Source: Demequina sp. NBRC 110055
Lineage (GTDB): Bacteria > Actinomycetota > Actinomycetes > Actinomycetales > Demequinaceae
Reading direction: 5' to 3'
NCBI RefSeq assembly: GCF_002090135.1
Contig: NZ_BBRL01000007.1
Location: 62,001 to 126,000, forward strand
DNA length: 64,000 nucleotides
Shown: piece by piece, positions 634 to 63,559 of the stretch
Position numbering within the stretch: the first letter of the stretch is position 1
How the letters are laid out: every line of letters starts with the position of its first letter
Notes under the pieces: model-generated
Told to the model about the DNA's origin: nothing
Seen by the model: the letters and a program-made list of their open reading frames with translations, nothing else
Databases searched by the model: none
Made by a program: the position numbers and the translations under genes

Positions 634-1587
634 ATGAGTATTTTCCGACGCCCGGACCACGGCGACGCTGAGGATCCCGGGGAGGACACTCCCGGCACGC
701 CCGTGGATCCGGCACCCGTCGACCCACCCACCGCGGTGGGCGTGGAGTCACCTGTCCCGCAGGTGGCACCGGTGTCCCGTGCCGGTCGCAACATGCCCGT
801 GGCGACCATCGTCGGTGTCTCGATCCTCGTGTTCGCGCTCGGCATCGCCTGGTGGGACGCGCGCGCGTTTTCAGTGCTGCTGATGCTCGTGTGCGTCGCA
901 GCCGTGCTCGAGTGGCGCACCGCGCTGCGTCAGCACGACCGTCGCATCGCAGTAGTCCCCACCGTGCTCGCGACGTTGGGTCTCGGAGTGGCCACGTATT
1001 TCGGCGGTCCCGAGGGCCTCGTGGTCGCGCTCATGGTGGCGTGCGCGGGAGTCGTCGCCTGGCGAGTGGCCGACGAACGCATCGAGAACACGATGGCCGA
1101 TGCCATGGCATCGATTCTCACCGTGCTGTGGATCCCCTTCCTGGCGAGCTTCCTGATCCTTATGGAGACCGCAGGAAATGGCTGGACCCGCGTCCTCATC
1201 CTCGTGCTCGCCGTCGTCGGTAACGACACCGGCGGACTGTTCGCGGGGATGCTGTTCGGCAAGCACAAGATGTCGCCACGGGTGAGCCCCAAGAAGACCT
1301 GGGAAGGCTTCGCGGGGGGCCTCCTGCTTGGTACCGTGGCCGCCACGGTTGCCGCGTTTGTCCTGTACGACGGACGCTGGTGGATCGGTGCCGTCGCGGG
1401 GCTCGCCTGCTGCCTCGCGGCCGTCCTCGGCGATCTCGCCGAGTCCGCGCTCAAGCGCGACCTGCAAGTCAAGGACATGTCGAGCCTCATCCCGGGCCAC
1501 GGCGGCATCCTTGACAGACTCGATTCCATCCTCGTGGCCGCTCCCGCCGGCTACGTGGTTCTCGCTTTCTTCCTGGGGGCCACATGA
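634..1587 (+). CDS. cdsA: Phosphatidate cytidylyltransferase (CDP-diacylglycerol synthase)
   Basis: A 317-residue integral membrane enzyme that makes CDP-diacylglycerol from phosphatidate and CTP, the precursor of phosphatidylglycerol and cardiolipin (compare pgsA at 50222). The CDS-family signature spans residues 271-297 (SALKRD, then [11 protein letters not shown]). An upstream [12 protein letters not shown] motif is also family-typical. Residues 1-50 form a Pro/Asp-rich cytosolic tail, followed by about eight hydrophobic segments. The gene ends in an ATGA overlap with rlmN, implying translational coupling. Residues ADAMA are encoded by a one-mismatch copy of the dispersed 15-mer (1095-1109). 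Confidence 0.95.
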
Positions 1588-2696
1588 CCGACCGTCCCGT
1601 CCTGCAAATGGCCGCACCCCGCAGGGGTAAGCCGCCGCAGCACTTCGCCGACCTCAATCACGACGAGCGTGCGGCGCTGATGCGCGAGCACGGCCTGCCG
1701 TCGTTCCGCGCCAAGCAGCTCGCGAATCACTATTACGCGCACCTCACCGTCGACCCCGACGACATGACTGACCTCCCGGCCGATGCCAAGGGTGCCCTCA
1801 CGGAGGCGGTCTTCCCGCCGCTGATGAAGAAGGTCACGTCGCTGGCCGCCGACGGCGGCGCGACCCTGAAGACCCTGTGGGCGCTGCACGACAACGTCAA
1901 GGTCGAGTCGGTGCTGATGAAGTACCCCGAGCGCGCCACGCTGTGCGTGACGAGCCAGGCCGGCTGCGGTATGGCCTGCCCGTTCTGCGCGACCGGCCAG
2001 ATGGGGCTGACCCGCAACCTGTCGGCCGCGGAAATCATCGAGCAGGTGCGCCTCGCCGCCAAGGCCGCGCGCGACGGCGACCTGGGCGGCGACCCCGTGC
2101 GCCTGTCCAACGTGGTCTTCATGGGCATGGGCGAGCCGCTTGCCAACTACAAGGCCGTGATGGCGACAGTGCGCGCCCTTGTCGCGCCCGCCCCCGAGGG
2201 CTTCGGGCTGTCGACGCGTCACGTGACCGTCTCGACGGTGGGCCTGGTGCCCGCGATCGACAAGCTTGCGAAGGAGGGCATCCCCGTGACCCTCGCGCTG
2301 AGCCTGCACGCCCCCGACGACGAGCTGCGCAACGAACTAGTCCCGATCAACACCCGCTGGAGTGTCGACGAGGCGCTCGACGCGGCGCGGCGCTACTTCG
2401 ACGCCACCGGCCGGCGCGTCTCCATCGAGTACGCGCTGATCCGCGACATGAACGACCACGCCCATCGCGCCGACCTGCTGGGTGAGAAGCTGCGTGCCAG
2501 GGGAGACGGGTGGGTGCACGTCAACCCCATCCCGCTGAACCCCACGCCCGGATCCAAGTGGACCGCGTCCGACCCTGCCGTCGAGCAAGAGTTCGTCCGC
2601 CGGCTGCGTGCGCACGGAATTCCGACGACTATCAGGGATACTCGAGGCAGCGACATCGACGGAGCCTGCGGACAGCTGGCGATCAAGGAGGCGTAA
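1584..2696 (+). CDS. rlmN: Dual-specificity 23S rRNA / tRNA adenine-C2 methyltransferase RlmN
   Basis: A radical-SAM enzyme of 370 residues that methylates C2 of A2503 in 23S rRNA and A37 in some tRNAs. The iron-sulfur cysteines are C128, C132 and C135 (CGMACPFC). The two catalytic cysteines of the family correspond to C121 (TLCVTSQAG) and C362 (DGACGQL near the C-terminus), so the enzyme looks complete. GEPL, ST and SIEYALI motifs are also present. It overlaps cdsA by 4 bases and is followed directly by the DivIVA-like gene, whose GTG start abuts its stop codon. Confidence 0.96.
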
Positions 2697-3254
2697 GTGG
2701 CGGAACTGCTGTTCCCGAAGGTGGGGCCGATGCGCCTGGGATACGACCGCGAGGACGTCGACGAGTTCTTCGACAAGGCCCGCGCCGCCTACGAGCAGCC
2801 CGGCATTCCCGAGGCCTTCGCGCCGTTCGACGTGCGTCGCGCCAGCTTTGACCTCAAGCACGGGGGCTACTCGACCGTCGCCGTGGACTCCGCGCTCGAC
2901 CGCCTCGAGAGTGCCTTCGCGACACGGATTCGTGAGCGCTACGCCAAGGAGCACGGCCCCGACGCGTGGATGCGTGACCTCGCGGACCGCGCCCAGGCGC
3001 TGTACCCGCGCCTGCGCCGCCCTGAGGGGGAGCGGTTCGCTCACCCGTCGGGGATGCACAAGGGTTACGACGCCCGCGACGTGGACATGATTCTCGACCG
3101 CCTGGTGGCGTTCTTCGATGCGGGCAAGCCGTTGACGCCGGATGAGGTGCGCGGCGCCACGTTTGGTAGCCGCCGCGGCAAGAAGGCGTACTCGGAGCGC
3201 GTCGTCGACGTCTACCTCGCCCGCGCTGTCGACATCCTGCTCGGCGCGCAGTGA
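2697..3254 (+). CDS. DivIVA-domain repeat protein
   Basis: A 185-residue soluble protein made of short DivIVA (DivI1A-type) repeats. The clear copies are GYDREDVDEFFDKARAAYE (residues about 15-33), GGYSTVAVDSALDRLESAF (about 60-78) and GYDARDVDMILDRLVAFF (about 122-139), plus a weaker AYSERVVDVYLARAVDIL at the C-terminus. In Wag31/DivIVA such a unit binds curved membrane at the pole. Here there is no long coiled coil, so this is not the main DivIVA. GTG at 2697 follows the rlmN stop without a gap, and the gene ends in a GTGA overlap with dxr. Its function is unknown; a scaffold or septal adaptor role is inference. Confidence 0.8.
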   Translation: MAELLFPKVGPMRLGYDREDVDEFFDKARAAYEQPGIPEAFAPFDVRRASFDLKHGGYSTVAVDSALDRLESAFATRIRERYAKEHGPDAWMRDLADRAQALYPRLRRPEGERFAHPSGMHKGYDARDVDMILDRLVAFFDAGKPLTPDEVRGATFGSRRGKKAYSERVVDVYLARAVDILLGAQ

Positions 3255-4402
3255 CCCGGTCCGTCGCCCTCCTGGGTTCGACGGGGTCGATCGGCACGCA
3301 GGCGATCGACGTCATCGGCCGCAATGCCGACGACTACGACGTCGTCGCCCTCGCGGCGGGCGGGTCTGACCCTGGCCTCGTCATCGATCAGGCGCGCGCG
3401 GTCCGTCCCGCGTTCGTGGCGGTGGCCTCGGCCGATGCCGCGGCTGAGGTTGCGCAGGCTCTGCCCGGCATCGAGGTGGCCGGGGGAGCGGACGCGGTGG
3501 TGGAAGCCGCGCGTCGCGGTGCCGACGTCGTCCTCAACGGCATCACCGGTTCGGTCGGGCTGCGCCCCACCCTCGCCGCGCTCGAGGCCGGCAGCACGCT
3601 CGCGCTGGCCAACAAGGAGTCGCTCGTCGCCGGCGGTGCACTGGTCAAGGCCGCGCGGCAGCGCCCCGATCAGATCGTGCCGGTCGATTCGGAGCACTCG
3701 GCGCTCGCCCAATGCCTGCGCGGCGGCAGCGCCGACGAGGTGCGACGACTCGTGGTCACGGCCTCGGGTGGCGCGTTCCGCGGCCGCTCGCGCGAGTCGC
3801 TCGCGGACGTCACCGCGGCCGATGCCCTCCGTCACCCCACGTGGGACATGGGCGCCGTCGTCACCATCAATTCCGCCTCGATGGTGAACAAGGCACTCGA
3901 GGTCATCGAGGCGCACCTATTGTTCGACATCCCCATGGACCGTATCGACGTGGTGGTGCATGCCCAGTCGATCGTGCATTCGATGGTTGAGTTCGTCGAC
4001 GGCAGCACGCTGGCCCAGGTGTCGCCTCCCGACATGCGCCTGCCCATTGCGCTGGGCCTGTCGTGGCCCGCGCGCATCCCGGATGCCGCGCCCGCCATGG
4101 ACTGGACCCAGGCCGGCACGTGGACCTTCGAGCCGCTCGACGAGCAGGCCTTCCCCGCGGTGAGCGTCGCTCGCGAGGCCGTTGCCGCATCGGCCCTGCA
4201 CCCCGCCGTCTTCAACGCCGCCAACGAGGAGTGCGTCGCCGCGTTCATCGACGGCCGCCTGCCGTTCCTCGGGATCGTCGAGACGGTCCGGCGCGTTGTG
4301 GAGGCGTACGAGGCCCCCGGCGAGCTGACGTTGGAGGCCGTAGACGGTGCCGAGCGATGGGCGCGCGAGACAGCGCGCGCCGCCATCGCTGGCGCCCGCT
4401 GA
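3251..4402 (+). CDS. dxr: 1-deoxy-D-xylulose 5-phosphate reductoisomerase
   Basis: A 383-residue MEP-pathway enzyme converting DXP to 2-C-methyl-D-erythritol 4-phosphate with NADPH. The Rossmann motif GSTGSIGTQ starts near residue 8. The NKESLVAGG, PVDSEHSA and ASGGAFRG motifs carry metal and substrate residues, and HPTWDMG and NAANEECV complete the family signature. The GTG start at 3251 overlaps the previous stop (GTGA). ispG, another step of the same pathway, lies 1.4 kb downstream with rseP between them, the usual actinobacterial order. A one-mismatch copy of the dispersed 15-mer is at 3430-3444 and reads ADAAA. Confidence 0.97.
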   Translation: MTRSVALLGSTGSIGTQAIDVIGRNADDYDVVALAAGGSDPGLVIDQARAVRPAFVAVASADAAAEVAQALPGIEVAGGADAVVEAARRGADVVLNGITGSVGLRPTLAALEAGSTLALANKESLVAGGALVKAARQRPDQIVPVDSEHSALAQCLRGGSADEVRRLVVTASGGAFRGRSRESLADVTAADALRHPTWDMGAVVTINSASMVNKALEVIEAHLLFDIPMDRIDVVVHAQSIVHSMVEFVDGSTLAQVSPPDMRLPIALGLSWPARIPDAAPAMDWTQAGTWTFEPLDEQAFPAVSVAREAVAASALHPAVFNAANEECVAAFIDGRLPFLGIVETVRRVVEAYEAPGELTLEAVDGAERWARETARAAIAGAR

Positions 4403-4405
4403 GCC

Positions 4406-4411: not shown

Positions 4412-4417
4412 AGGGAT

Positions 4418-5762: not shown

Positions 5763-6917
5763 GTGACCACCATCGGACTCGGAATGCCCGCCATGCCCGC
5801 CCCCGTCCTCGCGCCGCGGCGCAAGACCCGCAAGATCAAGGTCGGGACCACCTACGTGGGCGGCGACGCGCCCGTCTCGGTGCAGTCGATGACGACCACC
5901 AAGACGCACGACATCAACGCGACCTTGCAGCAGATCGCCGAGCTCACCGCAGCCGGCTGTGACATCGTTCGCGTGGCCTGTCCCACGCAGGACGACGCGG
6001 ACGCGCTGCCCGCGATCGCCAAGAAGTCGCAGATCCCCGTGATCGCGGACATCCACTTCCAGCCCAAGTACGTCTTCGCCGCGATCGAGGCCGGCTGCGC
6101 CGCGGTGCGTGTGAACCCGGGCAACATCCGCAAGTTCGACGACCAGGTCAAGGAGATCGCGCAGGCGGCGAAGGACCACGGCACGAGCCTGCGCATCGGC
6201 GTCAATGCGGGTTCGCTCGACCCGCGCCTACTGCAGAAGTACGGCAAGGCGACTCCCGAGGCACTCGTCGAGTCGGCCGTGTGGGAGGCGAGCCTGTTCG
6301 AGGAGCACGACTTCCACGACTTCAAGATCTCGGTCAAGCACAACGACCCGGTCGTGATGGTCGAGGCGTACAAGCAGTTGAGCGAGCGCGGCGACTGGCC
6401 GCTGCACCTCGGCGTGACCGAGGCGGGCCCCGCCTTCCAGGGCACCATCAAGTCCGCCACCGCCTTCGGTGCGCTGCTCAGCCAGGGCATCGGCGACACC
6501 ATCCGCGTGTCCCTGTCCGCGCCCCCCGTCGAGGAGGTCAAGGTCGGCCTGCAGATTTTGCAGTCGCTCAACCTGCGTGAGCGCAAGCTCGAGATTGTGT
6601 CGTGCCCCTCGTGCGGCCGCGCCCAGGTGGACGTGTACGAGCTCGCCGAGAAGGTCACCGCCGGACTCGAGGGCATGGAGGTGCCGCTGCGCGTCGCCGT
6701 CATGGGCTGCGTCGTGAACGGCCCCGGCGAGGCCCGCGAGGCCGACCTGGGCGTCGCGTCGGGCAACGGCAAGGGTCAGATCTTCGTCAAGGGCGAGGTC
6801 ATCAAGACCGTCCCCGAGTCGCAGATCGTCGAGACCCTCATCGAGGAGGCCATGCGTATCGCCGAGTCGATGGAGCCCGTCGAGGGCGCCTCGCCCCAGG
6901 TGGTCGCCACCTCATGA
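5763..6917 (+). CDS. ispG: 4-hydroxy-3-methylbut-2-enyl diphosphate synthase (flavodoxin/ferredoxin)
   Basis: A 384-residue iron-sulfur enzyme of the MEP pathway that reduces MEcPP to HMBPP. The TIM-barrel half carries [13 protein letters not shown], and the C-terminal half has the cluster motifs SCPSCGR and [18 protein letters not shown] at 5763 gives the conserved TTIGLGMP N-terminus and sits 11 bases after AAGGAG (5746-5751). An ATG at 5755 opens only a three-codon ORF. It overlaps the following GNAT gene by 4 bases. Confidence 0.96.
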
Positions 6918-7837
6918 CCGATTCGCTGCTCCGGCGCGCTCAGCACACGCTGGCGCCGGCGCAGCGACGCGACCTTCCGGCCCTCGCGCAACTGTGTGCG
7001 GCCGATCCCGTGACCCATGTGGTGCCACGCATGCATCTCGATGCGGCGCTGCGCTCCGGCGTCGTGCCCGGCGGGCTGTGGGTGGTGCGCAGGCGCGTGG
7101 GACTCGGCCGCGAGATCGCGGGCCTCGTGTGGGCCGGCGCGAACCTGTCGGTCGCGTTGGCGTCCGTGGGGGAGGCCGATGCCGTGGATGACCTGCACGC
7201 CGACCTCGCCGCCGCAATGGTGGGGCGGCTGAGTCGCCCTGCGGCGCTCGTCGGTGAGGCCGCGCTCATGCTCGACCTGTGGGGGCGGGTCGAACCGTGG
7301 TGGGGGCCCGCTCGCGAGGTGCGCGAGCATCAGGTGTCGATGAGGATCGACGGCCCTGCGCAGCCGGTTGCACCTCTCGACGCCGCCGACGTGGACCTGG
7401 ACCCCGTCCGACTCGCGACCCCCGAGGACTACGACGCGCTGCTGCCCGCATGCGTGCACATGTTCATCGGCGAGGTGGGCTACGACCCCATGCGACACGG
7501 GCGCGCCGCCTACGAGGACCGGCTGCGCTTCCTCATCCGTGCCGGCCGGGCGTATCTGCAGATGGGCATCGTCGACGGCGTGCGCCAGGTGGTGTTCAAG
7601 GCGGAGGTGGGTGCGCTCGGGGGAGAGGTCGCCCAACTGCAGGGCGTCTGGGTGCATCCGGCCCTGCGCGGACGCGGGCTGGCGCGCGCGGGCCTCGTCG
7701 AGGTAGTCGACCAGGTGCGCGCACACACCGCGCCCACAGTCTCGCTGTACGTCAACGACTTCAACGATGCCGCGCTCGCGGCCTACCGGGCGGTCGGGTT
7801 CCGCGAGGTCGGGGTCTTCGCGACCGTGATGTTCTGA
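6914..7837 (+). CDS. GNAT-family N-acetyltransferase with N-terminal DUF4081-like domain
   Basis: A 307-residue protein. The C-terminal half (about 165-307) is a GNAT fold with an acetyl-CoA loop in [21 protein letters not shown] and the ending [18 protein letters not shown]. The N-terminal half is the DUF4081 type often fused to it. It starts in an ATGA overlap with ispG, an order conserved in actinobacteria (Rv2867c beside gcpE). The substrate is unknown. A one-mismatch copy of the dispersed 15-mer (7174-7188) encodes ADAV in the N-terminal half. Confidence 0.85.
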
Positions 7838-7872: not shown

Positions 7873-7887
7873 ACCACGGCATCGGCC
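7873..7887 (-). repeat. Copy of the dispersed GGCCGATGCCGTGGC motif (one mismatch), intergenic
   Basis: On the minus strand it reads GGCCGATGCCGTGGT. It lies between the GNAT stop and proS, next to a small GGTCG/CGACC hairpin and a GCCTC/GAGGC hairpin (7848-7861) that may terminate the upstream transcript. Confidence 0.6.
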
Positions 7888-7909: not shown

Positions 7910-9712
7910 ATGCTTCGCATGTCCACGATCTTCCTGCGCACGCTGCGCGAGAACCCCGCCGACGCCGAGGTCGCGTCGCACCAGCTGCTGGTCCGCGCCG
8001 GCTACATTCGCCGCGCCGCGCCCGGCATCTATACCTGGCTGCCGCTGGGCCTCAAGGTGCTCGCCAAGGTCGAGCAGATCGTGCGCGAGGAGATGGACGC
8101 CGCCGGCGGCCAGGAGGTGCACTTCCCCGCGCTGCTGCCGCGCGAGCCCTACGAGGCAACCGGACGGTGGGACGAGTACGGTCCCAACCTGTTCCGCCTG
8201 AAGGACCGCAAGCAGGGCGACTACCTCCTCGCACCCACGCACGAGGAGATGTTCACGCTCCTGGTGAAGGACCTGTACAGCAGCTACAAAGACCTGCCGC
8301 TGACGATCTACCAAATCCAGACCAAGTACCGCGACGAGGCGCGCCCCCGCGCGGGACTGCTGCGCGGGCGCGAGTTCATCATGAAGGACTCGTACTCGTT
8401 CGACATTGACGACGAGGGCCTCGACGTCTCGTACGCCGCGCAGCGCGCCGCCTACATCCGCATCTTCGAGCGCCTGGGCCTCGAGTACGTCATCGTGCAG
8501 GCGCAGTCGGGCGCGATGGGTGGCTCGAAGTCCGAGGAGTTCCTGTCTCCCACCGAGGTGGGCGAGGACACGTTCGTGCGCTCGCCCGGCGGCTACTCGG
8601 CTAACGTCGAGGCCGTCACGACGCCCGTGCCGGACGCGATCGACTGGTCCGATGCCCCCGCCGCGCACGTTGAGGACACCCCCGACACCCCGACGATCGA
8701 GACTCTCGTCGCCGCGGCCAACGCCGCTCACCCGCGCGAGGACCGTCCCTGGACCGCAGCGGACACCCTCAAGAACGTGGTCCTCGCCGCGACCAACCCC
8801 GCGGGCGAGCGCGGCCTGCTCGTGATCGGTGTCCCGGGAGACCGTGACGTCGACCTCACGCGTGTCGAGGCGGCCCTGTCGCCCGCGACGGTCGAGGCCG
8901 CGAACGAGGACGACCTCAAGGCCCACCCCGAGCTCGTCAAGGGCTACATCGGCCCCGAGGCCCTGGGACCGCAGGCCCGGCCCGAGGGCGTCGAGCTCGA
9001 CTCCGAGGACGACACCGCCATTCCGTATCTGCTCGACCCGCGCGTGGTGCCCGGCACGCGCTGGATCACGGGCGCCAACGTCCACGGCAAGCACGTCTTC
9101 GACCTCGTCGCCGGTCGCGACTTCGTGGGCGACGGCGTGATCGAGGCCGCCGACGTGCGCGCCGGCGATCCCGCCCCCGACGGCTCGGGTCCGCTCGAGC
9201 TCGCACGCGGCGTCGAGATCGGTCACATCTTCCAACTGGGCCGCAAGTACGCCGCGGCGCTCGACCTCAAGGTGCTCGACGTCAACGGCAAGCAGCAGGT
9301 CGTCACGATGGGCTCGTATGGCATTGGCGTCACGCGTGCCGTCGCGCTGCTGGCCGAGAACAACCACGACGACCTCGGCCTCGTGTGGCCCATCCAGGTC
9401 GCGCCCTTCCACGTGCAGGTGGTGGCGACGGGCAAGGACCAGGCGGTGTTCGACGCCGCCCAGGAGCTCGCCGCCGGCCTCGAGGCCGCAGGCGTCGAGG
9501 TGCTCTACGACGACCGCCCCAAGGTCTCGCCCGGCGTGAAGTTCAAGGACGCCGAACTGCTCGGTGCGCCCTACATCCTCGTCGTCGGCCGCGGTCTCGC
9601 GGACGGCGAGGTCGAGCTCAAGACTCGTGCGAGCGGTGCGAGCGAGAATGTGCCGGTGGCCGATGCCGTGGCTGAGCTCTCGCGCCGTGTCGCCGAGGCG
9701 CTCGCGGCCTAG
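7910..9712 (+). CDS. proS: Prolyl-tRNA synthetase, bacterial type with editing insertion
   Basis: A 600-residue class II synthetase. The N-terminus [20 protein letters not shown] is typical. Motif 2 is [19 protein letters not shown], and motif 3 is [16 protein letters not shown] near residue 470. The INS editing domain (about residues 220-400), which removes Ala-tRNA(Pro), lies between motifs 2 and 3. The C-terminal anticodon-binding domain runs from about 490 to the end. The stop overlaps the convergent lipoprotein gene by 4 bases. An exact copy of the dispersed 15-mer (9658-9672) encodes ADAVA 13 codons before the stop. Confidence 0.97.
9658..9672 (+). repeat. Exact copy of dispersed GGCCGATGCCGTGGC motif
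   Basis: Exact match near the 3' end of proS, read as ADAVA. It is one of seven exact copies in the window. Confidence 0.75.
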
Positions 9713-10695
9713 GACTCCGCGGTGATCCCCGGCAGTGCCGGGATCACCGCGTCGTGGGTGCCAGGCTCGGCGTAGGCGGCGGCCTGCGCGTAGGCGTCGA
9801 ACGCCGCCGAGAGAACCCACGGCTTCTCGGCATCGTCGAGGCCGTCGAGTAGGGCGGCGTATCGATCTCCCAGGGCCGTCTCGGCTGCCTGGGCGGCGCT
9901 GACGCGCCCGTCGGCATCCTCAAGACCCTCGTTGCTGACGACGTAGATTGGCGCGCGCCGGTCCTCGACGCCGGGTAGAGCGGCGAGGGCCTCGGCGCGG
10001 GCGTCCTGCAGGTCGCGCCGCGCGAGCCACTGCTCGCGTTCCTCGTCGCTCGCCTTGGCCGCGAGTACCTCGTAGAGGTAGCGCGTGCGGTCGTGTTCCT
10101 CGACCAGGGTGGCGAGGGTGTCGACGTCGAGCGCCGTGGCTACCGGCACGGCGTCGGTGGTGTCGGTGGGTGCCGAGGAGAACAGGCGCAGCTCCACCAC
10201 GTCGGTCTCGGGGTCGGTGAAGGTCGTCTCCGCCCACCACGCGTACCAGCCCATGAGGCCATGCGACAGCGCCGTGGAGGTCAACATGAACGCGAGGTCG
10301 TCGTCGGAGGTCTCCAGCGCCGCGGCGATCGCGCCGTCGCGGGCGGTCTCCACGGCATCGGCCGCCGACGTGGTGGGCGACGCCGACGGCGACGGTGTCG
10401 CGTCGGGGTAGGCGACATAGACGCCGCCCAACGCGGCTAAACGCTCCGGCGCGGCCTCGCCCTCGTAGGCGGCAAGCACCTCGTCCGATGCGGTGCCGTC
10501 GGATCGAGATAGTGCGTCGATCACGGCCTGCTCGCGTTCGGCCGCAGCGTCGCGGGTCACGGTGACGGCGTCGGGTGAGGGCCAGGTGGGCTCGGGAGTC
10601 TCGAGTCTCCAGGAGCAGCCGGTGAGGGCGACCGCGATGGCCGCGGCGAGGCCGACCGTGGCGGCGGCGCGGGTCGCTGTCATGGCCGTCATCAT
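9709..10695 (-). CDS. Lipoprotein with ferritin-like DUF4439 domain
   Basis: A 328-residue exported lipoprotein. The signal peptide ends in the lipobox LTGC near residue 27, so it is probably anchored on the outer face of the membrane. The C-terminal half (about 180-320: [23 protein letters not shown], then [15 protein letters not shown]) matches the all-helical DUF4439 ferritin-like domain. A related gene sits at the same place, opposite proS and before rimP, in mycobacteria (Rv2844). Metal binding is not shown. A second start (fifth codon) is possible. A one-mismatch 15-mer copy (10349-10363) encodes ADAVE. Confidence 0.75.
9718..9751. terminator. Bidirectional hairpin between convergent proS and DUF4439 gene
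   Basis: Arms CGCGGTGATCCC(C)GGCA and TGCCGGGATCACCGCG pair over 16 bp with one bulged C. The hairpin starts 5 bases after the proS stop but lies inside the last codons of the opposite-strand lipoprotein gene. There is no T tract. A terminator role is inferred from strength and position. Confidence 0.5.
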
Positions 10696-15853: not shown

Positions 15854-16763
15854 AGCCGAGCCGGCCCCCGGGCTGGTGCTGGTCGATAAGCCCGCGGGCT
15901 GGACATCGCACGACGTCGTCGGGCGCATGCGCCGGCTCGCGGGCACCCGCAAGGTGGGCCACGCCGGCACGCTCGATCCGATGGCCACGGGCCTGCTCGT
16001 GATCGGCATCGGCAAGGCCACCAAGCTGCTCACCTACGTGGTGGGCCACGACAAGGTCTACGAGGCCACCATCCGGCTGGGCCAGTCCACGGTGACCGAC
16101 GACGCCGAGGGCGACGTGACCGCGTCCGCTGACGCCAGCGGCGTCACCGACGCCCAGATGGCCGATGCCGTGGCCGGCTTGACCGGCGACATTCAGCAGG
16201 TGCCCAGTTCCGTCAGCGCCATCAAGATCGACGGCCAGCGCGCCTACAAGCGGGTGCGCGACGGCGAGGACGTGGCGCTTCCCGCCCGTCCCGTCACGGT
16301 GCACGACTTCGAGATCCTCGCGGTGCGCCGAGAGGGCGACCTGATCGACCTCGACGTGCGCGTCGACGTGTCCTCGGGCACCTATGTGCGCGCCCTTGCG
16401 CGCGACCTCGGCGCGGCCCTGGGCGTGGGCGGTCACCTCACGGCGCTGAGGCGTACGAGCGTGGGTGACCTCGAGGTTCAGGACGCCATGACGCTCGACC
16501 AGTTGGGCGCCATGGTGGACGCCGGGGCAGAGGTGCCCCGCCTGCCGCTGGGAGCGGCCGCTGCGGACATCCTTCCTGTGCGGGCGCTCACCGACCGCGA
16601 GGTCGCCACGCTCGGCTTCGGACAGTGGCTCGACGCCGACACGGAGCTCGCCTATGACGGCCCCCTTGCCGCGCTCGACTCCAACGGCGACCTGGTCGCC
16701 ATCGTCGAGCGCAAGGGCGACAAGCTCAAGCCGCAGATCGTGTTCCGCACGGCACACGGCTGA
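15837..16763 (+). CDS. truB: tRNA pseudouridine-55 synthase TruB
   Basis: A 308-residue enzyme that makes pseudouridine 55 in the T-loop of tRNAs. The catalytic aspartate is D47 in HAGTLDPMATGLL. The SSGTYVRALARDLG motif and a C-terminal PUA-like region (ILPVRALTDREVATLGFG) are present. ATG 15837 starts inside the 3' end of rbfA and is preceded by AAGGACGAGG. An exact copy of the dispersed 15-mer (16160-16174) encodes ADAVA. Confidence 0.95.
   Translation: MATTPKAEPAPGLVLVDKPAGWTSHDVVGRMRRLAGTRKVGHAGTLDPMATGLLVIGIGKATKLLTYVVGHDKVYEATIRLGQSTVTDDAEGDVTASADASGVTDAQMADAVAGLTGDIQQVPSSVSAIKIDGQRAYKRVRDGEDVALPARPVTVHDFEILAVRREGDLIDLDVRVDVSSGTYVRALARDLGAALGVGGHLTALRRTSVGDLEVQDAMTLDQLGAMVDAGAEVPRLPLGAAAADILPVRALTDREVATLGFGQWLDADTELAYDGPLAALDSNGDLVAIVERKGDKLKPQIVFRTAHG
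16160..16174 (+). repeat. Exact copy of dispersed GGCCGATGCCGTGGC motif
   Basis: Exact match inside truB, followed by CGGC as in several other copies. It is read as ADAVAG. Confidence 0.75.
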
Positions 16764-24227: not shown

Positions 24228-24278
24228 GGGCCGATGCGGTGGCGGGCCTGCGTACGAAGCCCGCCACGGCATCGGCCC
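24228..24278. repeat. Inverted pair of the dispersed motif forming a 20-bp hairpin
   Basis: Two oppositely oriented copies of the 15-mer (24229-24243, one mismatch; 24263-24277, exact) lie within 20-nt arms 24228-24247 and 24259-24278. The arms pair at 19 of 20 positions around an 11-base loop. The element lies between the rpsO terminator and the putative pnp promoter. It could be a processing site, a backup terminator or a DNA element. Confidence 0.8.
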
Positions 24279-39393: not shown

Positions 39394-40717
<1,324 letters not shown>

Positions 40718-40735: not shown

Positions 40736-40750
40736 GGCCGATGCGGTGGC
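40736..40750 (+). repeat. Intergenic copy of the dispersed motif (GCGG variant)
   Basis: GGCCGATGCGGTGGC, one mismatch from consensus. Together with its exact reverse complement at 41168-41182 it brackets the cupin gene. Confidence 0.7.
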
Positions 40751-41167: not shown

Positions 41168-41188
41168 GCCACCGCATCGGCCGGTGGC
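41168..41188 (-). repeat. Dispersed-motif copy that closes into its own hairpin
   Basis: GCCACC-GCATCGGCC-GGTGGC: the 15-mer variant is followed by six bases that pair back with its first six, leaving the core GCATCGGCC in the loop. It lies 5 bases after the cupin stop, so it may also act as that gene's terminator. Confidence 0.65.
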
Positions 41189-48810: not shown

Positions 48811-50165
48811 GAGGCCGTCGGCGACGCGGACGCCGCCACGGCATCGGCCGTCCTGGCGAGAGGCTCAACGCTCACGGCGAGCGGCTCAGGCGCGTCGGTG
48901 AGTTCGGGGGCGGACTCGCCGAGCGCCGCCGCAACTCGGGCGTGACGCGCGCGGGCCTCGGCGGCGTCCATCGTTCCCGCGCCGTCGTCCACAATGTCGC
49001 TCAAAACGTACATGCGGTGCCCGTCGAGCCGGTCGACGGTGATGGCGGTCCACGACGCGTCGACCTCGACGGGGCCGTCGGCGGGCACTGTGAAGGTCGC
49101 GTTGAGCAGTGCCCCAGCATTGGTGTCCGCCACGCAGCACTGCGTGCCCTGGTTCGACAGGAAGTTGCCCAGCCCAAAGGCCGTCCACATCCCCTCACCG
49201 GACGGGCCGCCGTTTAGCAGTTCCAGCGGCTGAGGCACGTGCGCGTGGTGGCCGATGTAGACGTCGACCTCGCCGGAGTCGGCGATCGCCTGGGCGAGTG
49301 CCCGCTGAGCCTCGGTGGGCTCGGTGCGGTACTCGACGCAGCAGTGCACGGATGCGAGCACGATGTCGGCTCCCTGCTCGCGTGCGCGGGCGGCGGCGTC
49401 GATGATCGGCTGGGCGTCGGCGGCGTTCGCGTCGAAGGTGTTGACCGACCATGGCTTGCCCTCGGGCTTGGGCAGGCCGTTCAGCCCGTAGGTATACGAG
49501 ACGTTCGCCACGGTCACGGCGGCATCGACGCCGCGAACCTCGTACATCTGGGTGACGGCCGCCTCGTCCTCGGTGCGTGCGGTGCCAGCGAAACCCAGGC
49601 CCGCCGCCTCCAGGTCGTCGAGCGTGACCTCGAGTCCCGCGAATCCGCGGTCGACCGAGTGATTCGACGCCGTCGAACACCCGTCGAAGCCCACCGTCGT
49701 GAGGCTCGGCACGATCTCCTCGGGCGCGGCAAAGACCGGATAGCCCGACGCCACGCCATCGGGCGCGACGGGGGTCTCGAGGTGGCACAGCGCGAGGTCC
49801 GCGCCCGACGTCCATGCGCTCACGCCCTCCATCAGCGGCGCAAAGTCGATGCCGGCGTCGGTGGTGGCCGAGCGCACCACGGGGGAGTGCGGCAGGACGT
49901 CGCCTCCGGCGACGAGGGTGAAGGTGACGGGCTGGTCGGGGGTGGGCTCCGGCGTCGCGGTTTGAGTGGGGGTGGGGGTAGCGGTGACGGTGGCCGATGC
50001 CGCGGCTGGCTGTGTCGCGGGCGACGACCCGCCAGGCACGGCCGTGGCGACGCCCACGGCGCCGCCCGCCACGAGTGCGGCCAGCACGCCCGCCGCGAAC
50101 GCCGCCGCCACGGTCCACGGGGCACGGACGGTCCGGTGGGTCGCGCGTAATGCCATGGTGGACAT
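48807..50165 (-). CDS. CapA-like metallophosphatase-fold protein
   Basis: A 452-residue exported protein. An N-terminal transmembrane or signal segment (about 18-42) and a Thr/Pro linker (about 55-78) precede a CapA (PGA_cap) domain: TLVAGGDVLPHSPVV, ALCHLETPVA, GCSTASNHSVDRGFAGL, VASVHCCVEY and YIGHHAHVPQPLEL. These are the metal-site motifs of the family linked to polyglutamate capsule synthesis. Here no capB or capC is nearby, so the role is open. Dispersed-motif copies occur in its N-terminal linker (49992-50006) and 10 codons before its stop (48835-48849). Confidence 0.85.
   Translation of the reverse strand: MSTMALRATHRTVRAPWTVAAAFAAGVLAALVAGGAVGVATAVPGGSSPATQPAAASATVTATPTPTQTATPEPTPDQPVTFTLVAGGDVLPHSPVVRSATTDAGIDFAPLMEGVSAWTSGADLALCHLETPVAPDGVASGYPVFAAPEEIVPSLTTVGFDGCSTASNHSVDRGFAGLEVTLDDLEAAGLGFAGTARTEDEAAVTQMYEVRGVDAAVTVANVSYTYGLNGLPKPEGKPWSVNTFDANAADAQPIIDAAARAREQGADIVLASVHCCVEYRTEPTEAQRALAQAIADSGEVDVYIGHHAHVPQPLELLNGGPSGEGMWTAFGLGNFLSNQGTQCCVADTNAGALLNATFTVPADGPVEVDASWTAITVDRLDGHRMYVLSDIVDDGAGTMDAAEARARHARVAAALGESAPELTDAPEPLAVSVEPLARTADAVAASASPTAS
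48835..48849 (-). repeat. Exact copy of dispersed GGCCGATGCCGTGGC motif
   Basis: Minus-strand exact copy in the disordered C-terminal tail of the CapA-like protein, read as ADAVAA. Confidence 0.75.
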
Positions 50166-50221: not shown

Positions 50222-50794
50222 GTGACCGGATCCGTGCCGAACGCGCTCACCGCGTTGCGACTGCTCGTCGTGCCGATCGCCGTAGTCCTTCTCGTCGTCG
50301 ACGACGGGGCCGACGGTCCGGCACGCTGGTGGGCGCTCGTGCTCGTGGCGTTCGCGGCCGCGACCGACTGGCTCGACGGCTATCTCGCACGGCGCTGGGA
50401 GGTCGTGTCGGGCTTCGGCAAGCTTGCCGACCCGATCGCCGACAAGGCCCTGGTCCTCGGCGTCTTGGCGTGCCTCGTGGTCGTCGACGGCATCCCGTGG
50501 TGGCCGCTTGCCATCCTGGTCGTGCGCGAGGTGGGCGTGACCATCGGCCGGCTTGCGGTGGCCTCCCAGGTGGTGATCCCGGCCTCCCGTGGGGGCAAGA
50601 TCAAGACGACGCTGCAACTCACCTCGCTGCTGATGTTCCTGCTGCCGGGCGCTCCGGCGTGGTGGGACGCCATCGCATGGTGGGTGCTGGTCGCTGCCGC
50701 GGTCGTGGCAGTCGTCACCGGGATCGACTACGCGCGCACCATCCGTGCGGCCAACCGGGCGCACCGCGACGGTACGGCCGATGCCGACGCCTGA
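50222..50794 (+). CDS. pgsA: CDP-diacylglycerol-glycerol-3-phosphate 3-phosphatidyltransferase
   Basis: A 190-residue membrane enzyme that makes phosphatidylglycerol phosphate from the CDP-diacylglycerol supplied by cdsA. The CDP-alcohol phosphotransferase motif is complete: D49, D52-G, A56-R57, G66, D70 and D74. About five transmembrane helices are expected. The end overlaps cinA by 14 bases, and the cinA ATG sits within a GGCCGATGCC core of the dispersed motif. Paired with cinA and clgR upstream of recA, as in many actinobacteria. Confidence 0.94.
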   Translation: MTGSVPNALTALRLLVVPIAVVLLVVDDGADGPARWWALVLVAFAAATDWLDGYLARRWEVVSGFGKLADPIADKALVLGVLACLVVVDGIPWWPLAILVVREVGVTIGRLAVASQVVIPASRGGKIKTTLQLTSLLMFLLPGAPAWWDAIAWWVLVAAAVVAVVTGIDYARTIRAANRAHRDGTADADA

Positions 50795-53750: not shown

Positions 53751-55211
53751 GTGGCGCAGTTGATCGCGACGGTGGCCACCCTGGTTCTGCTGCTCGTCTC
53801 CCTCCTCCTGGTCTTTTACGCGCGCCGCGAGGCCGAGGCGATCCGCCGTTCCGTCACCTCCGAGACCCAGGGCATGCGCGAGGAAGCCCGCGATCTGGTG
53901 TCTGAGGCTCAGCGGCGTGAGGAACGTGTCGCCCAGCGCGAGAAGGACCTGGCTGCCGACCAGCGCGCCGCGCAGACGTATTCGCGCGCGCTCGAGGAGC
54001 GAGCCGCCGTGGTCGCGCGTGACGAGCGTCGCGTCGCCGGCGATCGCGAGCTCATCGCCCAGCAGACGCGCCAGGCGCTGGCCGAGGTCGCAGGCCTCAG
54101 CGCTCAGGAGGCGCAGGAGCAGTTGCGCGCGCGGGTAGTTGCGGCCGCGAAGGACGACGCGCGTGCCGACGTGCGCCGCATTGAGCGTCAGGCCAAGAGT
54201 TCCGCCGACCGCCGGGTGCGCGAAATCCTCGTGGGTGCCATGCAACGCCAGGCGGCGCGCACCTCCGCCGAGGCGGCCGCCACGTGGATCGACCTTCCCA
54301 GTGATGACATGAAGGGCCGCATCATCGGTCGTGAGGGCCGTAACATTCGCGCGTTCGAGTCGATCACGGGCGTGAACGTGCTGGTGGAGGAGGGCGTCAA
54401 CGCCGTCCAACTGTCGTCGTTCGATGTTGAGCGCCGCGAGATCGCCGAGGTCACCCTGCGCGACCTCATCGACGACGGTCGCATCCACCCCCACCGCATC
54501 GAGACCGCCTATCACCAGGCGGTGGCCGATGCCGATGCGCGTCACCTCGAGGCCGGTCTGGACGCCGTCGAGGCCGCGGGAGTCCGCGGTATCCCGGAGG
54601 ACGTCGTGATGACCCTCGGTCGCCTTCGTCTGCGCAGCAGCTACGGCCAAAACGTCCTGAGCCACCTCGTCGAGGCCGCGCAGATCGCGGGCGACATCGC
54701 TCGCGAGTTGGGCGCCGACGTGGAGCTCGCCACCCGTGCCACCTTCCTGCATGACATCGGCAAGGCCTTCACCCACGAGCGGCCCGGCACCCATGCCTCG
54801 CTGGGCGCGAGCTACATGCGCGAGCACGGCGAGAGCGAGGACGTCGTCAACGCGATCGCCGCCCACCACGACGAGGTGGAGCCGCAGACCCTCGAGGCGC
54901 TCATCGTGCAGGTGGCGGATGCGATTTCCGCGTCGCGCCCCGGCGCGCGCCGCGACGACGCCGATGCGTACATCGAGCGCATGGAGAACCTCGAGACGCT
55001 CGTCGCCGACCATCACGGCGTGTCGAAGGTCATCGCGATGGCCGCGGGTCGCGAAGTGCGCGTGGTCGTCGAGCCCCACGAGGTCGACGACGAGGGCGTC
55101 GAGTCGCTGGCGCGTACAATTGCTGAGCACATCAGCAGCGACTTCAGCTTCGCTGGAGAGATCAGAGTGACCGTGGTCCGCGAACTTCGCGCCGACGCGG
55201 TCGCAGGGTAG
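53751..55211 (+). CDS. rny: Ribonuclease Y
   Basis: A 486-residue membrane-bound endoribonuclease. It has an N-terminal transmembrane helix (about 3-22), a long coiled coil (about 25-190), a KH domain ([23 protein letters not shown]) and an HD domain with H334-D335 (FLHDIGKA). RNase Y starts mRNA decay in Firmicutes; co-occurrence with RNase J suggests a Bacillus-like decay setup here. GTG 53751 follows GGAAGAAGGG. Confidence 0.94.
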
Positions 55212-56764: not shown

Positions 56765-57735
56765 GCGAGGAGGCCGCCGCGGCATCGGCCGGTGTCCAGG
56801 CGCCGCCGGTGATCGCCGTCGTCGGCTCGACAGCCACGGGTAAGTCGGCGATCTCCCTCGCGCTGGCCGAGGCGCTCGACGGCGAGATCGTCAACGCCGA
56901 CGCGATGCAGTTCTACCGCGGCATGGACATCGGCACGGCGAAGCTGACCGTCGCGGAGCGCCGCGGCATTGCTCACCACCAGCTCGACACGCTCGCCGTG
57001 ACCGAGGACGCGTCGGTTGCACGGTTTCAGCGCGAGGCGCGCGCCGACATCACCGCGATTCAGGCGCGAGGACACACCCCCATCGTGGTGGGCGGCTCGG
57101 GGCTGTACCACCGCGCCCTACTCGACCGCTTCGAGTTCCCGCCGACGGACCCGCGGGTGCGCGCGAGGCTCGAGGAGCGTGGAGACGTCGAGGGGCCAGG
57201 CATCCTCTACCGCGAACTGCTCAAGGCCGATCCCGACGCCGCCGCGAGCATCGGCCCGTCCAACACCAAGCGCCTCGTGCGGGCCCTCGAGGTGATCGAA
57301 ATCACCGGACGGCCGTTCTCGTCGGGCCTGCCGCGCCACGAATACGAGGTGCCGGCGATCCAGATCGGGCTCGAGCTCGCGCACGACATCCTCGATCCCC
57401 GCATCGAGGCACGCGTGGACGCCATGTGGGCCGGCGGCCTAGTCGAGGAGACGCGCGGGCTCGTCGAGCGGGGCCTGCGCGAGGGAACCACCGCCAGGCG
57501 CGCCGTCGGCTACGCGGAAACACTGCGCCACCTCGACGGGGAACTCGACGCGGCTGAGGCCCGCGCCCTCATCGCCCAGCACACGCGCAGGCTCGCGCGC
57601 AAGCAACGTCAGTGGTTCCGTCCCGACCCCCGGGTGACGTGGATCGCGGCGCCGGTCGACCATCACGACGTCGCACGCGCCGCCGCCGACGCGCTGGCCG
57701 TCGTCGAGCGCGGCGCCGGTAGCCTGGGCGCATGA
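56761..57735 (+). CDS. miaA: tRNA dimethylallyltransferase MiaA
   Basis: A 324-residue enzyme adding a dimethylallyl group to A37. The P-loop GSTATGKS is at 22-29; [17 protein letters not shown] and [12 protein letters not shown] are substrate motifs. GTG 56761 overlaps the miaB stop and is the start best fitting family length. The N-terminal EEAAAASAG is encoded by a one-mismatch 15-mer copy (56776-56790). It also overlaps dapF by ATGA. Confidence 0.95.
57720..57725 (+). promoter_or_regulatory. Candidate -10 box, leaderless dapF
   Basis: TAGCCT inside the end of miaA, 6 bases before the dapF ATG. dapF could be made both by read-through and from this box. Confidence 0.35.
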
Positions 57736-59224: not shown

Positions 59225-59231
59225 TCCTGCG

Positions 59232-60778: not shown

Positions 60779-62829
60779 GTGGGGCCGATGCCGTGGCCGG
60801 CTCGGCGACCAAGCCCACCCAGGCGGCAGGTGACGCGACGGCTGAAGCCGCGCCGGCATCGGCCGCCGAAACCGAGGCGGTGCGGCTACTCGACCGTGCC
60901 GTGGGCGCGCTCGGGGGAGCGCGACGCGAGGGCCAGACGCGGATGGTACAGGCCGTGGAGCGTGCCCTGTCGGGCAAGGGGCACGCGCTGATCCAGGCGG
61001 GCACCGGCACGGGAAAGTCGCTCGGCTACCTGGTGCCGGCGGTCGCTCACGCCGCGCGCGAGGGCCAGCGCGTGGTGGTCTCGACGGCCACCCTCGCCCT
61101 CCAGCGCCAGGTGTTCACCAAGGACATCCCGCTCGTCCTGGACGCCCTCGAGCCCGAACTGGGAGAGCGCCCCCGTGCGGCCCTGTTCAAGGGGCGCTCG
61201 AACTACCTGTGCAAGCACAAGCTGGCCGGCGGCTACGGCGAGCCTGACGAGGACATGCTGCCCATCGTCGCCGGCCCGACGAGCGACCTGGGCCGCGAGG
61301 TGGCGCGCCTGCACGAGTGGGCGGACGAGACCGAGACGGGGGACCGCGACGACCTCGTGCCAGGCGTCTCGCACCGCGCCTGGGCGCAGGTCAGTGTCAG
61401 CGGGCGCGAATGCCTCGAGTCGAAGTGCCCGGCGCTCAAGGAGTGTTTCTCGCAGCGGGTGCGAGACCAGGCGGCCGATGCGCACGTGGTGGTGACGAAC
61501 CACGCGGTGCTGGGCGTGCAGGCCGCGAGCCACGACATGCTCGGCGAACACCACGCCCTGATCGTCGACGAGGCTCACGAACTGGTGGGACGCATCACGG
61601 GGGCCGCGACGCACGAGCTGACGGTGGCGCGGGTGGACCGTGCCTCGAGCGCGACCCGCCGCGTGGGTGTCACGACCGAGGACCTCGACCGCGCCGCGCG
61701 GGCCCTTGATGCCGCGCTGGGAGACGCACGGCCGGCGCGGCTGCGCCAGGGGCTGGGCGAGGAACTCGCCGCCGCCGTCGAACTGGTGCGCGGCGCCGCC
61801 CGCGCGGCCCTCAGCGCCGTGCAGAAGGCGACCAAGGACACACCGGAGTCGAAGACGCCGGGCGACACGGCATCGGCCACCGCCAAGATGGCCAGCGCCG
61901 CCCTCCAGGAGATCCACGACGTGTGCGAGGAGCTCGCGGGCGAACACGGCCGGTACGTGATCTGGCTCGCACCGCCCGACGGCGACTACGAGTCTGAGCG
62001 CGCCGAGCGCATCGTGGCCGCGCCGCTCGATGTCGCCGGGCTGATCCGTGAGCGGCTGATCGACGAGCGCTCGTCGGTGTTCACGTCCGCGACGCTCGCC
62101 CTGGGTGGCAACTTCGACGCGATGGCGCGACACCTCGGGATCGACGACCCCGAGACCCTCGACGCGGGTAGCCCCTTCGACTACGGCAAGCAGGGCATCC
62201 TCTACGTCGCCAAGCACCTGGAGCGCCCGGGCGCCGGAGGCATCTCCGCCGAGGCCCTCGACGAACTCGCGGCACTCATCGAGGCCGCGGGAGGGCGCAC
62301 CCTGGGACTGTTCTCGTCCCACAGGGCCGGCCAGGCGGCCGCCGAGGCGATGCGCGAGCGACTCGACGTTCCGGTGCTCTATCAACTGGACGACCAGCTG
62401 CCGACCCTTGTCGAGCAGTTCAAGGCCGACCCGCGCGCGTGCCTGTTCGGCTCGACGTCGCTATGGCAGGGCATCGACGTGCCCGGCCCCACCGCATCGC
62501 TCGTCGTGATCGACCGCATCCCGTTCCCGCGCCCCGACGAGCCCATTTCGCAGGCGCGCACGGAGGCAATCGCCCAGCGCGGCGGCAACGGCTTTATGGC
62601 CGTCTCCGCGACCCATGCTGCGCTCCTCATGGCGCAGGGCGCGGGCCGACTCATCCGCGCGCACGACGACAGGGGAGTCGTGGCAGTCCTGGACTCGCGC
62701 CTCGCGACGGCCCGCTACGGCGGCTTCCTCGCGCGCTCCATGCCGGAACTGTGGCCCACCACGGACCGCGCCACCGTGCTAAGCGCGCTACGGCGACTCG
62801 ACGAGTCCGCGAGGGCCGCCGGTCGCTAG
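60775..62829 (+). CDS. dinG: DinG-family ATP-dependent DNA helicase
   Basis: A 684-residue XPD-like helicase. Walker A is AGTGTGKS (75-82), and the DEAH box is IVDEAHEL (about 264-271). Iron-sulfur cysteines appear as NYLCKHK and GRECLESKCPALKECF. The last motif VLDSRLATARYG is family-typical. The first 30 residues are Ala-rich and variable and are encoded partly by an exact 15-mer copy (60783-60797); another copy (61864-61878) lies in an internal linker. No LexA box precedes it. Confidence 0.94.
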   Translation: MSGADAVAGSATKPTQAAGDATAEAAPASAAETEAVRLLDRAVGALGGARREGQTRMVQAVERALSGKGHALIQAGTGTGKSLGYLVPAVAHAAREGQRVVVSTATLALQRQVFTKDIPLVLDALEPELGERPRAALFKGRSNYLCKHKLAGGYGEPDEDMLPIVAGPTSDLGREVARLHEWADETETGDRDDLVPGVSHRAWAQVSVSGRECLESKCPALKECFSQRVRDQAADAHVVVTNHAVLGVQAASHDMLGEHHALIVDEAHELVGRITGAATHELTVARVDRASSATRRVGVTTEDLDRAARALDAALGDARPARLRQGLGEELAAAVELVRGAARAALSAVQKATKDTPESKTPGDTASATAKMASAALQEIHDVCEELAGEHGRYVIWLAPPDGDYESERAERIVAAPLDVAGLIRERLIDERSSVFTSATLALGGNFDAMARHLGIDDPETLDAGSPFDYGKQGILYVAKHLERPGAGGISAEALDELAALIEAAGGRTLGLFSSHRAGQAAAEAMRERLDVPVLYQLDDQLPTLVEQFKADPRACLFGSTSLWQGIDVPGPTASLVVIDRIPFPRPDEPISQARTEAIAQRGGNGFMAVSATHAALLMAQGAGRLIRAHDDRGVVAVLDSRLATARYGGFLARSMPELWPTTDRATVLSALRRLDESARAAGR
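60783..60797 (+). repeat. Exact copy of dispersed GGCCGATGCCGTGGC motif
   Basis: Exact match covering codons 3-8 of dinG (read GADAVA). Its context GGGGCC before and CGGC after matches the longer consensus. Confidence 0.75.
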
Positions 62830-62845
62830 CAGGGGCGTTGCCCGC

Positions 62846-63559
62846 CTAGATGCGGCGCATCACCGAGACGACCTTGCCCATGATCGAGGCGTGGGTGCCG
62901 TCGATGGGGGTGTAGGCGGGGTTGTGCGGCATCAGCCACACCTGGCCGTCGCGGCGGCGGAAGGTCTTCACGGTGGCCTCGTCGTCGAGCAGCGCCGCGA
63001 CGATGTCGCCGTTCTCGGCGGTGTGCTGACGGCGCACCACCACCCAGTCGCCATCACAGATGGCGGCGTCGATCATCGAATCTCCGGTGACGTTGAGCAT
63101 GAACAGCTCGCCCTCACCCGTGAGCTGACGCGGCAGCGCGAACACATCCTCGACGGCCTGGTCTGCCAGGACCGGCCCACCGGCGGCGATGCGGCCCACG
63201 AGCGGCACCATCGAGACGTCCTCGCGGCCGTCAGGGTGGGACGCGGCAACGGGTTCGGGGGAGGAGGCCGATGCCGTGGCGGGCTCGGTCTCCGGCATCA
63301 CCACTTCGATGGCGCGGGGACGGTGGGGATCGCGACGCAGGTAGCCCTTGGTCTCGAGCGCCGTCAGCTGGTGCTTGACCGATGACGTGGACGTGAGTCC
63401 CACGGCCTGGCCGATCTCGCGCATCGACGGCGGGTAGCCGCGTGACTCGACCGAGTCGCGGATGGTCAGGAGGATGCGGCGCTGACGCTCGGTCAGCGGA
63501 CCGCCCGACGTGTCAGGGAACTCGTGGATGGTGGCGCCCGCCTCGGTTCGCTCTGCCAT
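62846..63559 (-). CDS. lexA: SOS repressor LexA
   Basis: A 237-residue repressor/autoprotease. The winged helix (about 22-85: [23 protein letters not shown]) is followed by an Ala/Pro/Ser linker (about 88-112) and the peptidase domain. The cleavage site is A126-G127 and the dyad is S161 (GDSM) and K198. ATG 63559 is fixed by AAGGAGGAG just upstream; longer starts lack support. An exact 15-mer copy (63266-63280) encodes ATASA in the linker. Confidence 0.97.
63266..63280 (+). repeat. Exact copy of dispersed GGCCGATGCCGTGGC motif
   Basis: Exact match in the linker of lexA; lexA reads the complementary strand as ATASA. Confidence 0.75.

Follow-up and report, generated by a model that had tools for sequence, protein, structure and literature searches.

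What is the 15-bp motif that recurs on both strands of a 64,000-nucleotide stretch of Demequina sp. NBRC 110055 (contig NZ_BBRL01000007.1, positions 62,001 to 126,000, the whole of which is called the window below), and what kind of system does it belong to? Demequina is a genus of the Demequinaceae (Micrococcales, Actinomycetota). The motif is probably a tag acting in the manner of the DNA uptake sequences (DUS) of Neisseriaceae and the uptake signal sequences (USS) of Pasteurellaceae, proper to the genus and independently evolved, a reading that is drawn from sequence comparison.

Abundance and strand distribution of the motif

The first-pass annotation of the window had listed 7 exact and 14 one-mismatch copies, and all 21 were recovered where it had placed them (12 on the forward and 9 on the reverse strand). 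The excess over chance that it had claimed was also found, with 33 sites at no more than two mismatches against 1.25±1.13 in dinucleotide shuffles of the window. About a quarter of the copies had been said to be intergenic; 5 of the 21 are indeed located between predicted genes (7873, 24229, 24263, 40736 and 41168), and the copy at 60783 partly so, while non-coding DNA makes up about 8% of the window (own gene caller).

The repeat is real and genome-wide. The exact 15-mer is present in 208 copies in the 2.82-Mb genome (reversed control: 0), and the near-equal strand split noted in the window holds there (108 forward, 100 reverse). The tighter core is GGCCGATGCC, with 1118 genome copies (579 and 539 by strand) against 30 for the reversed string (13 and 17), and with 31 copies in the window against 1.25 expected under a third-order Markov model. 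Further counts were performed on a sample of 504 kb, composed of the window, the first 200 kb of contig C4 (picked without regard to motifs), a further 200 kb of C4 (partly picked for close motif pairs) and two 20-kb pilin regions. When GATGC was kept, 53, 126, 200 and 301 sites of the 15-mer were counted in this sample at up to 0, 1, 2 and 3 mismatches, against 0, 1, 5 and 33 for the reversed control. In intergenic copies the consensus extends to about GGCCGATGC(C)GTGGC(C/G)GGC. The Demequina tag is a non-palindromic string of 10-15 bp with graded flanks, and one copy is present about every 2.5 kb. Such an abundance of a single short motif, reaching hundreds or thousands of copies over the two strands and exceeding what codons and composition predict, is a hallmark of uptake systems that Demequina shows.

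Distribution between genes and spacers

Genes of the 504-kb sample were predicted using our own simple gene caller (463 genes, coding fraction 0.879). A comparison with codon-matched shuffles had been set beforehand as the refuting test, and in this sample the motif withstood it: in shuffles exchanging synonymous codons, which preserve all proteins and the codon usage, GGCCGATGCC was found 13.55±3.33 times in genes (maximum 27, 200 trials) against 160 observed, and the 15-mer 0.24 times against 25. Within the first 200 kb of C4, 65 core copies in genes were counted against 5.5±2.0 (maximum 10). The constraint is at the DNA level and not at the protein level. The in-gene cores are read as Ala-Asp-Ala in the main forward frame (105 of 160) and as Ala-Ser-Ala (39) or Gly-Ile-Gly (15) in reverse frames, with 106 copies in the orientation of the gene vs 54 opposed to it. 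One favoured orientation in reading frames is also reported for DUS and USS in the excerpted text of PMC2346458.

Between genes the motif is enriched. The 53 exact 15-mers of the sample, about 12% of which is non-coding, are divided into 27 between genes, 1 partial and 25 in genes (binomial p 7e-12), and 59 of the 219 cores are outside genes, 160 being inside (p 2e-9 for the intergenic excess). The first 200 kb of C4 (10.9% non-coding) gave 7 intergenic copies out of 15 for the 15-mer (p 5e-4) and 20 out of 85 for the core (p 8e-4).

The majority of tag copies in the sample are unpaired. Twelve inverted pairs that do not overlap each other, have their two copies within 70 bp and stay clear of genes altogether were counted, all in +- arrangement; this count is not an unbiased density because part of the sample was picked for listed close pairs. 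Seven of them lie in tandem spacers, five in convergent and none in divergent spacers (two-sided p 0.025), divergent spacers making up 28% of the non-coding bases counted and holding, as single copies, 4 of the 27 exact intergenic 15-mers. Three of four folded pairs form strong hairpins (z -4.5, -9.0 and -8.5), and the fourth, at 60783, has a z of -1.7. Inverted pairs at gene ends together with enrichment between genes form another hallmark of uptake systems. The pairs are terminator-like, and we infer that they may be reused as hairpin terminators.

Several hairpin pairs, including 24229-24277, hold an additional GC-rich arm and loop (GGGCTTCGTACG-like) between both tags. A perfect spacer palindrome, GGGCTTCGTACGAAGCCC, had been guessed from a few pairs and was rejected, with 0 exact copies.

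Dialects across the genus

Tag variants were counted on both strands of the whole genomes of 44 Demequina, among which G000 is the genome of the window. Four 10-mers were found, GGCCGATGCC, GGCCGATGCG, GGACGATGCG and GGCCGATGCT, which have CGATGC in common and whose main counts are strand-balanced. GGCCGATGCC reaches at least 900 copies in four genomes, namely G000 (1118), Demequina sp. NBRC 110051 (G024, 1097), Demequina sp. NBRC 110057 (G015, 1081) and D. litorisediminis (G061, 907), followed by G059 (651) and G019 (427), then by values of at most 351. GGCCGATGCG is present in at least 660 copies in eight genomes (G035 1203, G030 1056, G014 1005, G034 864, D. activiva G016 862, G061 671, G015 669, G032 667) and in at most 483 in the remaining ones, G061 and G015 being high for both GGCCGATGCC and GGCCGATGCG. 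GGACGATGCG has at least 700 copies in 15 genomes, from 711 (G029) to 1564 (G006), and 10-235 in the others. GGCCGATGCT is found 736 times in D. flava (G010) and 221-307 times in G021, G065, D. sediminicola (G008), G036 and G063. Reversed controls gave 1-11 copies per genome for GGACGATGCG and 6-46 for the three other strings. Other labels of the set are G031 for D. maris, G017 for D. soli, G025 for D. phytophila and G002 for D. iriomotensis.

A species tree was built from alaS, mltG, ruvX and PilB for 39 of the 44 genomes. All genomes with at least 900 copies of GGCCGATGCC fall in one clade, five GGCCGATGCG genomes in another, and 12 GGACGATGCG genomes in a third, which includes the tag-poor G027. 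The dialects, with their shared core, thus mostly follow clades, and this broad congruence with phylogeny, from which a split of GGACGATGCG is excepted, is again a hallmark of uptake systems. In G006 its own dialect is found 41 times in genes vs 3.6 after shuffling and 26 of 67 copies are outside genes (12.5% non-coding), whereas the dialect of the window shows no enrichment there (6 vs 5.3 in genes, 0 outside). None of the four tags is clear in the whole-genome counts of G001, G003, G005, G009, G012, G013, G028 and G033. A de novo dialect search in 14-60 kb each of G001, G003, G009, G018, G028 and G033 gave no strong tag; a weak one is possible. In 22 genomes from other families of the order, only 0-2 exact 15-mers per genome were found.

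Seven genes of the pilus neighbourhood were aligned by codons and tags were marked in genomes with more than 400 copies: alaS had 24, distributed over three positions, ruvX had 4 and PilM 1, and mltG, PilB, PilT and PilC had none. At one shared alaS site (aligned nt 2655-2685, L069-L108), a tag is present in 4 of 5 genomes of the GGCCGATGCG dialect (three spelled GGCCGATGCG, and G032 spelled GGCCGATGCC), GGACGATGCG is present in 11 of 14 genomes of its dialect with GCC changed to TCC and Ala to Ser, and the four readable genomes of the GGCCGATGCC dialect have no tag. The Ala to Ser change in alanyl-tRNA synthetase coincides with the dialect and is possibly a tag-driven amino-acid change; it may be one inherited event, and therefore illustrates a dialect change rather than many independent cases.

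Type IV pilus and DNA import genes

Type IV pilin N-terminal motifs were detected in 44 of 44 Demequina genomes and a ComEC match in 43, the sole exception being 85% complete. In G000, an operon adjoining alaS-ruvX-mltG encodes PilB (MshEN and ATPase domains), PilT, PilC, a PilA-like pilin, two minor pilins and PilM. PilB, PilT and PilC are present in all 39 fetched loci (G000 and 38 relatives) and PilM in 38 of them; ComEA adjoins ComEC, and matches to both were found in 20 of 20 fetched loci. The genus thus combines genes for a type IV filament with ComEA/ComEC import genes, as is characteristic of uptake systems. The pilus operon comes in two classes, whose second pilin has either about 140-210 or about 600-760 aa, and members of both occur scattered across the species tree. 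An orphan pilin is a candidate DNA receptor.

Loss of ComEC was considered as a general cause of tag poverty and rejected, since G001, G012, G003, G028, G018, G013 and G033 have few tags yet one long ComEC frame. Within the 20 fetched loci, two tag-poor genomes have an irregular ComEC: that of G009 (L254) is spread across two frames, and that of G027 (L253) is matched only in part. Either decay of the gene or a faulty assembly may be behind this, and the assemblies of G027 and G061 (50% complete) may contain errors.

Pilin-headgroup-like domains with a cysteine pair were also seen on apparent non-pilin membrane proteins of several Demequina (L273-L280, L282-L285), and some of these genomes are among those without the orphan pilin. 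Some of the domains sit behind what we take to be DUF4190- or DUF2510-type segments.

Proposed mechanism and alternative explanations

Under the uptake reading, tagged double-stranded DNA would be bound at the cell surface by a receptor located on the type IVa pilus or close to it, the pilus (PilB/PilT/PilC) would retract the DNA, ComEA and ComEC would import one strand, and homologous recombination would swap the resident allele for the incoming one. Biased uptake of tagged fragments would let tags accumulate and persist (molecular drive), and it is proposed that copies would therefore be found on both strands and settle where protein and regulation tolerate them, that is in Ala-Asp-Ala and Ala-Ser-Ala frames and at gene ends, where inverted tags could be reused as hairpin terminators. 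A drift of the receptor preference would shift the tag set of a genome to a new dialect. If this is true, the origin of uptake specificity, dialect switching and species isolation become testable in a new lineage of 44 genomes, and it would follow that actinobacteria take up DNA by means of type IVa pili.

Several observations weigh against the uptake reading. In G001, G003, G009, G012, G013, G028 and G033, pilins and a ComEC match are accompanied by only a few copies, or none, of the four tags counted, so that the machinery is no predictor of tags. The full-length orphan pilin was not found in the tag-rich G011, G020, G062, G059 and G019, and is truncated in G014 despite 1005 tags. Covariation with dialect was assessed by Mantel and partial Mantel tests (36-39 of the 44 genomes per protein, 25 for the orphan pilin, those of G025, G026, G028, G029 and G030 being left out), and gave a partial r of 0.34 for alaS, 0.15 for the orphan pilin, 0.11 for PilT, 0.02 for PilA and less than 0 for the rest. 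Pilin distance therefore tracks dialect weakly; as alaS outscored all pilins, phylogeny was incompletely removed, this route to the receptor was rejected and no receptor is claimed.

To the same side belong the occurrence of GGACGATGCG in G004 and G064, which the tree places apart from the main clade of that dialect, the partly selected sample behind the pair counts, and the absence of a clear bias in tag position within genes. The largest tag-free gap, 16.7 kb, is inside random expectation (95% point 20.9 kb) with no excess of long gaps, and tag deserts as foreign DNA were rejected on this ground. Of the 27 genomes that reach 400 tags, 24 had a fetched pilus locus; in these, tags are about 7.5-fold sparser in the pilB-pilM interval (15 over 255 kb) than in the flanking DNA (100 over 225 kb), perhaps reflecting exchange of operons by other routes. 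At a second alaS site, in the conserved RARADAKA stretch, a GGCCGATGC(G/C) string is carried by 7 of 14 genomes of the GGACGATGCG dialect, and foreign-dialect strings are thus tolerable under protein constraint. The open-licence PubMed Central (PMC) literature yielded no experiment on competence or DNA uptake in Demequina.

If the tags were bound by some abundant protein of the chromosome, nucleoid-associated or architectural, with a specificity that differs among species and so creates the dialects, this would account for tags that are dispersed, strand-symmetric, non-palindromic and spaced at about 1 per 2.5 kb. This reading, for which no search for such a protein was made, is unlikely, as it predicts neither the restriction of hairpin pairs to gene ends nor a core spread inside genes. 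A methylation- or restriction-related site, or a repeat like HIP1, is less probable still. High copy number and a fixed core would suit it, and HIP1 of cyanobacteria is a highly abundant short repeat, a palindromic octamer of debated function that is not known for terminator pairs. Typical methylation and restriction recognition sites are shorter than 10-15 bp, so that a non-palindromic tag of this length with graded flanks exceeds them, and neither terminator-like pairs nor whole-genome dialect shifts are expected of such a site. Both readings fit the dialects and the terminator-like pairs less well than an uptake tag does.

The first-pass annotation had also listed a repetitive extragenic palindromic (REP) element among its hypotheses. 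A REP-type or other mobile repeat, or a plain family of intrinsic terminators, agrees with the 12 inverted pairs wholly outside genes and with strong hairpins in three of four pairs folded, but is largely refuted and very improbable, because 160 of 219 core copies in the sample are in genes, most copies are unpaired, and the motif does not behave as extragenic palindromic units. The uptake-signal part of that list is strongly supported by copy number, strand symmetry, gene-end hairpins, dialects and the pilus and ComEA/ComEC genes. Codon usage combined with recurrent Ala-Asp-Ala and Ala-Ser-Ala protein motifs, for which the dominance of one frame (105 of 160) might be quoted, is refuted by the synonymous shuffles (13.6 vs 160) and by the 59 cores outside genes, and retains practically no probability.

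Motif sites in the window

Sites were located by sequence match and placed using our own gene caller. The clear inverted pair of the window is 24229..24277, formed by a one-mismatch copy at 24229-24243 (+) and an exact copy at 24263-24277 (-); it is a strong, terminator-like hairpin (-45.5 kcal/mol, z -4.46) between tandem genes (upstream end 24153, downstream start 24494). The exact copy at 60783..60797 (+) overlaps a predicted gene start, and its loose inverted partner at 60850..60864 (-, 2 mismatches) is inside the gene that the first copy overlaps; this pair folds weakly (z -1.69 vs shuffles).

The other exact copies, all in genes, are at 9658..9672 (+), 16160..16174 (+), 36261..36275 (-), 48835..48849 (-) and 63266..63280 (+). 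One-mismatch copies are found in genes at 1095..1109 (+), 3430..3444 (+), 7174..7188 (+), 10349..10363 (-), 28241..28255 (+), 36825..36839 (+), 39659..39673 (-), 49992..50006 (+), 56776..56790 (-) and 61864..61878 (-), and between genes at 7873..7887 (-), 40736..40750 (+) and 41168..41182 (-). Copies with 2 mismatches are located in genes at 6481..6495 (-), 19758..19772 (-), 21185..21199 (-), 23153..23167 (+), 30735..30749 (+), 35511..35525 (+), 50776..50790 (+) and 54524..54538 (+). Three motif-like sites with 2 mismatches have an altered core: GATCC at 7000..7014 (+), between genes, and GAGGC at 31790..31804 (-) and GATGG at 49750..49764 (-), both in genes. The string GGGCTTCG is also over-represented in the window (18 vs 3.2).

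A second repeat in Microbacteriaceae

Words of the GGATGCCG type were seen in named loci of Microbacteriaceae. CGGATGCCG, which shares GATGC with the Demequina tag, is dispersed and strand-balanced (G066-G072; L163, L180, L182, L183, L186). Counted in 20 whole genomes, it is present in 1787 copies in Ruicaihuangia caeni, 1044-1361 in five Cryobacterium and 1217 in Pseudolysinimonas kribbensis (reversed 58-126), in 197-685 copies in six genomes of Amnibacterium, Labedella, Leifsonia and Homoserinimonas (reversed 60-106), and in 82-216 copies in seven of Sanguibacter, Cellulomonas, Actinotalea, Cellulosimicrobium and Micrococcales KH10 (reversed 46-152). In genes it was found 25 times vs 2.7 in synonymous shuffles for the Cryobacterium loci, 6 vs 0.5 for Ruicaihuangia, 37 vs 10.7 for Pseudolysinimonas and 5 vs 3.5 for Cellulomonas. 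Outside genes there is a slight excess in Cryobacterium (4 of 29 copies, 9.6% non-coding) and a stronger one in Ruicaihuangia (4 of 10, 8.8%); in Pseudolysinimonas no intergenic enrichment was found (6 of 43 at 21% non-coding, the copies being mostly in genes) and no clear hairpin pair was seen in 140 kb. The nature of CGGATGCCG is less certain because of this uneven enrichment and the lack of clear pairs in Pseudolysinimonas.

A joint reading may be entertained tentatively, with a probability that we put somewhat short of even: uptake-sequence systems would have arisen independently in Actinomycetota, in Demequina (at least 4 dialects around CGATGC) and in Microbacteriaceae (Cryobacterium, Ruicaihuangia and Pseudolysinimonas, around GGATGCCG), and the GATGC common to both would hint at a single, older uptake code of actinobacteria that a pilin headgroup reads. 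Dialect change would then act as a species barrier to gene exchange and even fix amino-acid changes, such as Ala/Ser in alaS, in housekeeping proteins.

Comparison with known uptake systems

Uptake sequences are described for two Gram-negative families in the available passages of PMC5031613 and PMC7811141, and a study of 2026 that screened the predicted terminators of thousands of genomes for motifs is reported, in the part of PMC13020248 at hand, to have found them in Neisseriaceae and Pasteurellaceae. For Demequina and other actinobacteria, searches of open-licence PMC papers (preprints excluded) listed no account of uptake sequences. Within Actinomycetota, natural transformation with ComEA/ComEC is described for Micrococcus luteus (PMC6370729, from excerpts), and a term search of PMC4322843, on the Micrococcus luteus comparison, returned none of 'uptake sequence', 'uptake signal' and 'DUS'. 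Micrococcus luteus uses a Flp/Tad pilus, whereas Demequina has genes for a type IVa pilus, ComEA/ComEC being common to both.

The tag of Pasteurellaceae is presented, in the portions consulted of PMC12616744 and PMC13020248, as genome-wide, with family dialects and presence in terminators; on that account the Demequina tag is alike in being genome-wide, with dialects and terminator-like placement. It differs in phylum and in sequence, and AAGTGCGGT is found twice in 504 kb of Demequina, which does not indicate descent from USS. A sequence-specific DNA receptor, a pilin of the ComP or ComN type, is expected of DUS and USS systems; the orphan pilin of Demequina is a candidate for this role.

For Neisseriaceae, the sections used of PMC3630211 describe a conserved core, dialects tracking the core-genome tree and inverted pairs at terminators. 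As far as that description goes, Demequina resembles them in having more than 1000 short non-palindromic tags on both strands, a core with dialects and pairs at gene ends, and, as in DUS bearers, type IV pilus and ComEC genes. Unlike them it belongs to another phylum and has another tag: the CTG core of DUS is absent from all four Demequina 10-mers and GCCGTCTGAA is found once in 504 kb, so that descent from DUS is not indicated either. By its sequence the Demequina tag is neither the neisserial DUS nor the pasteurellacean USS.

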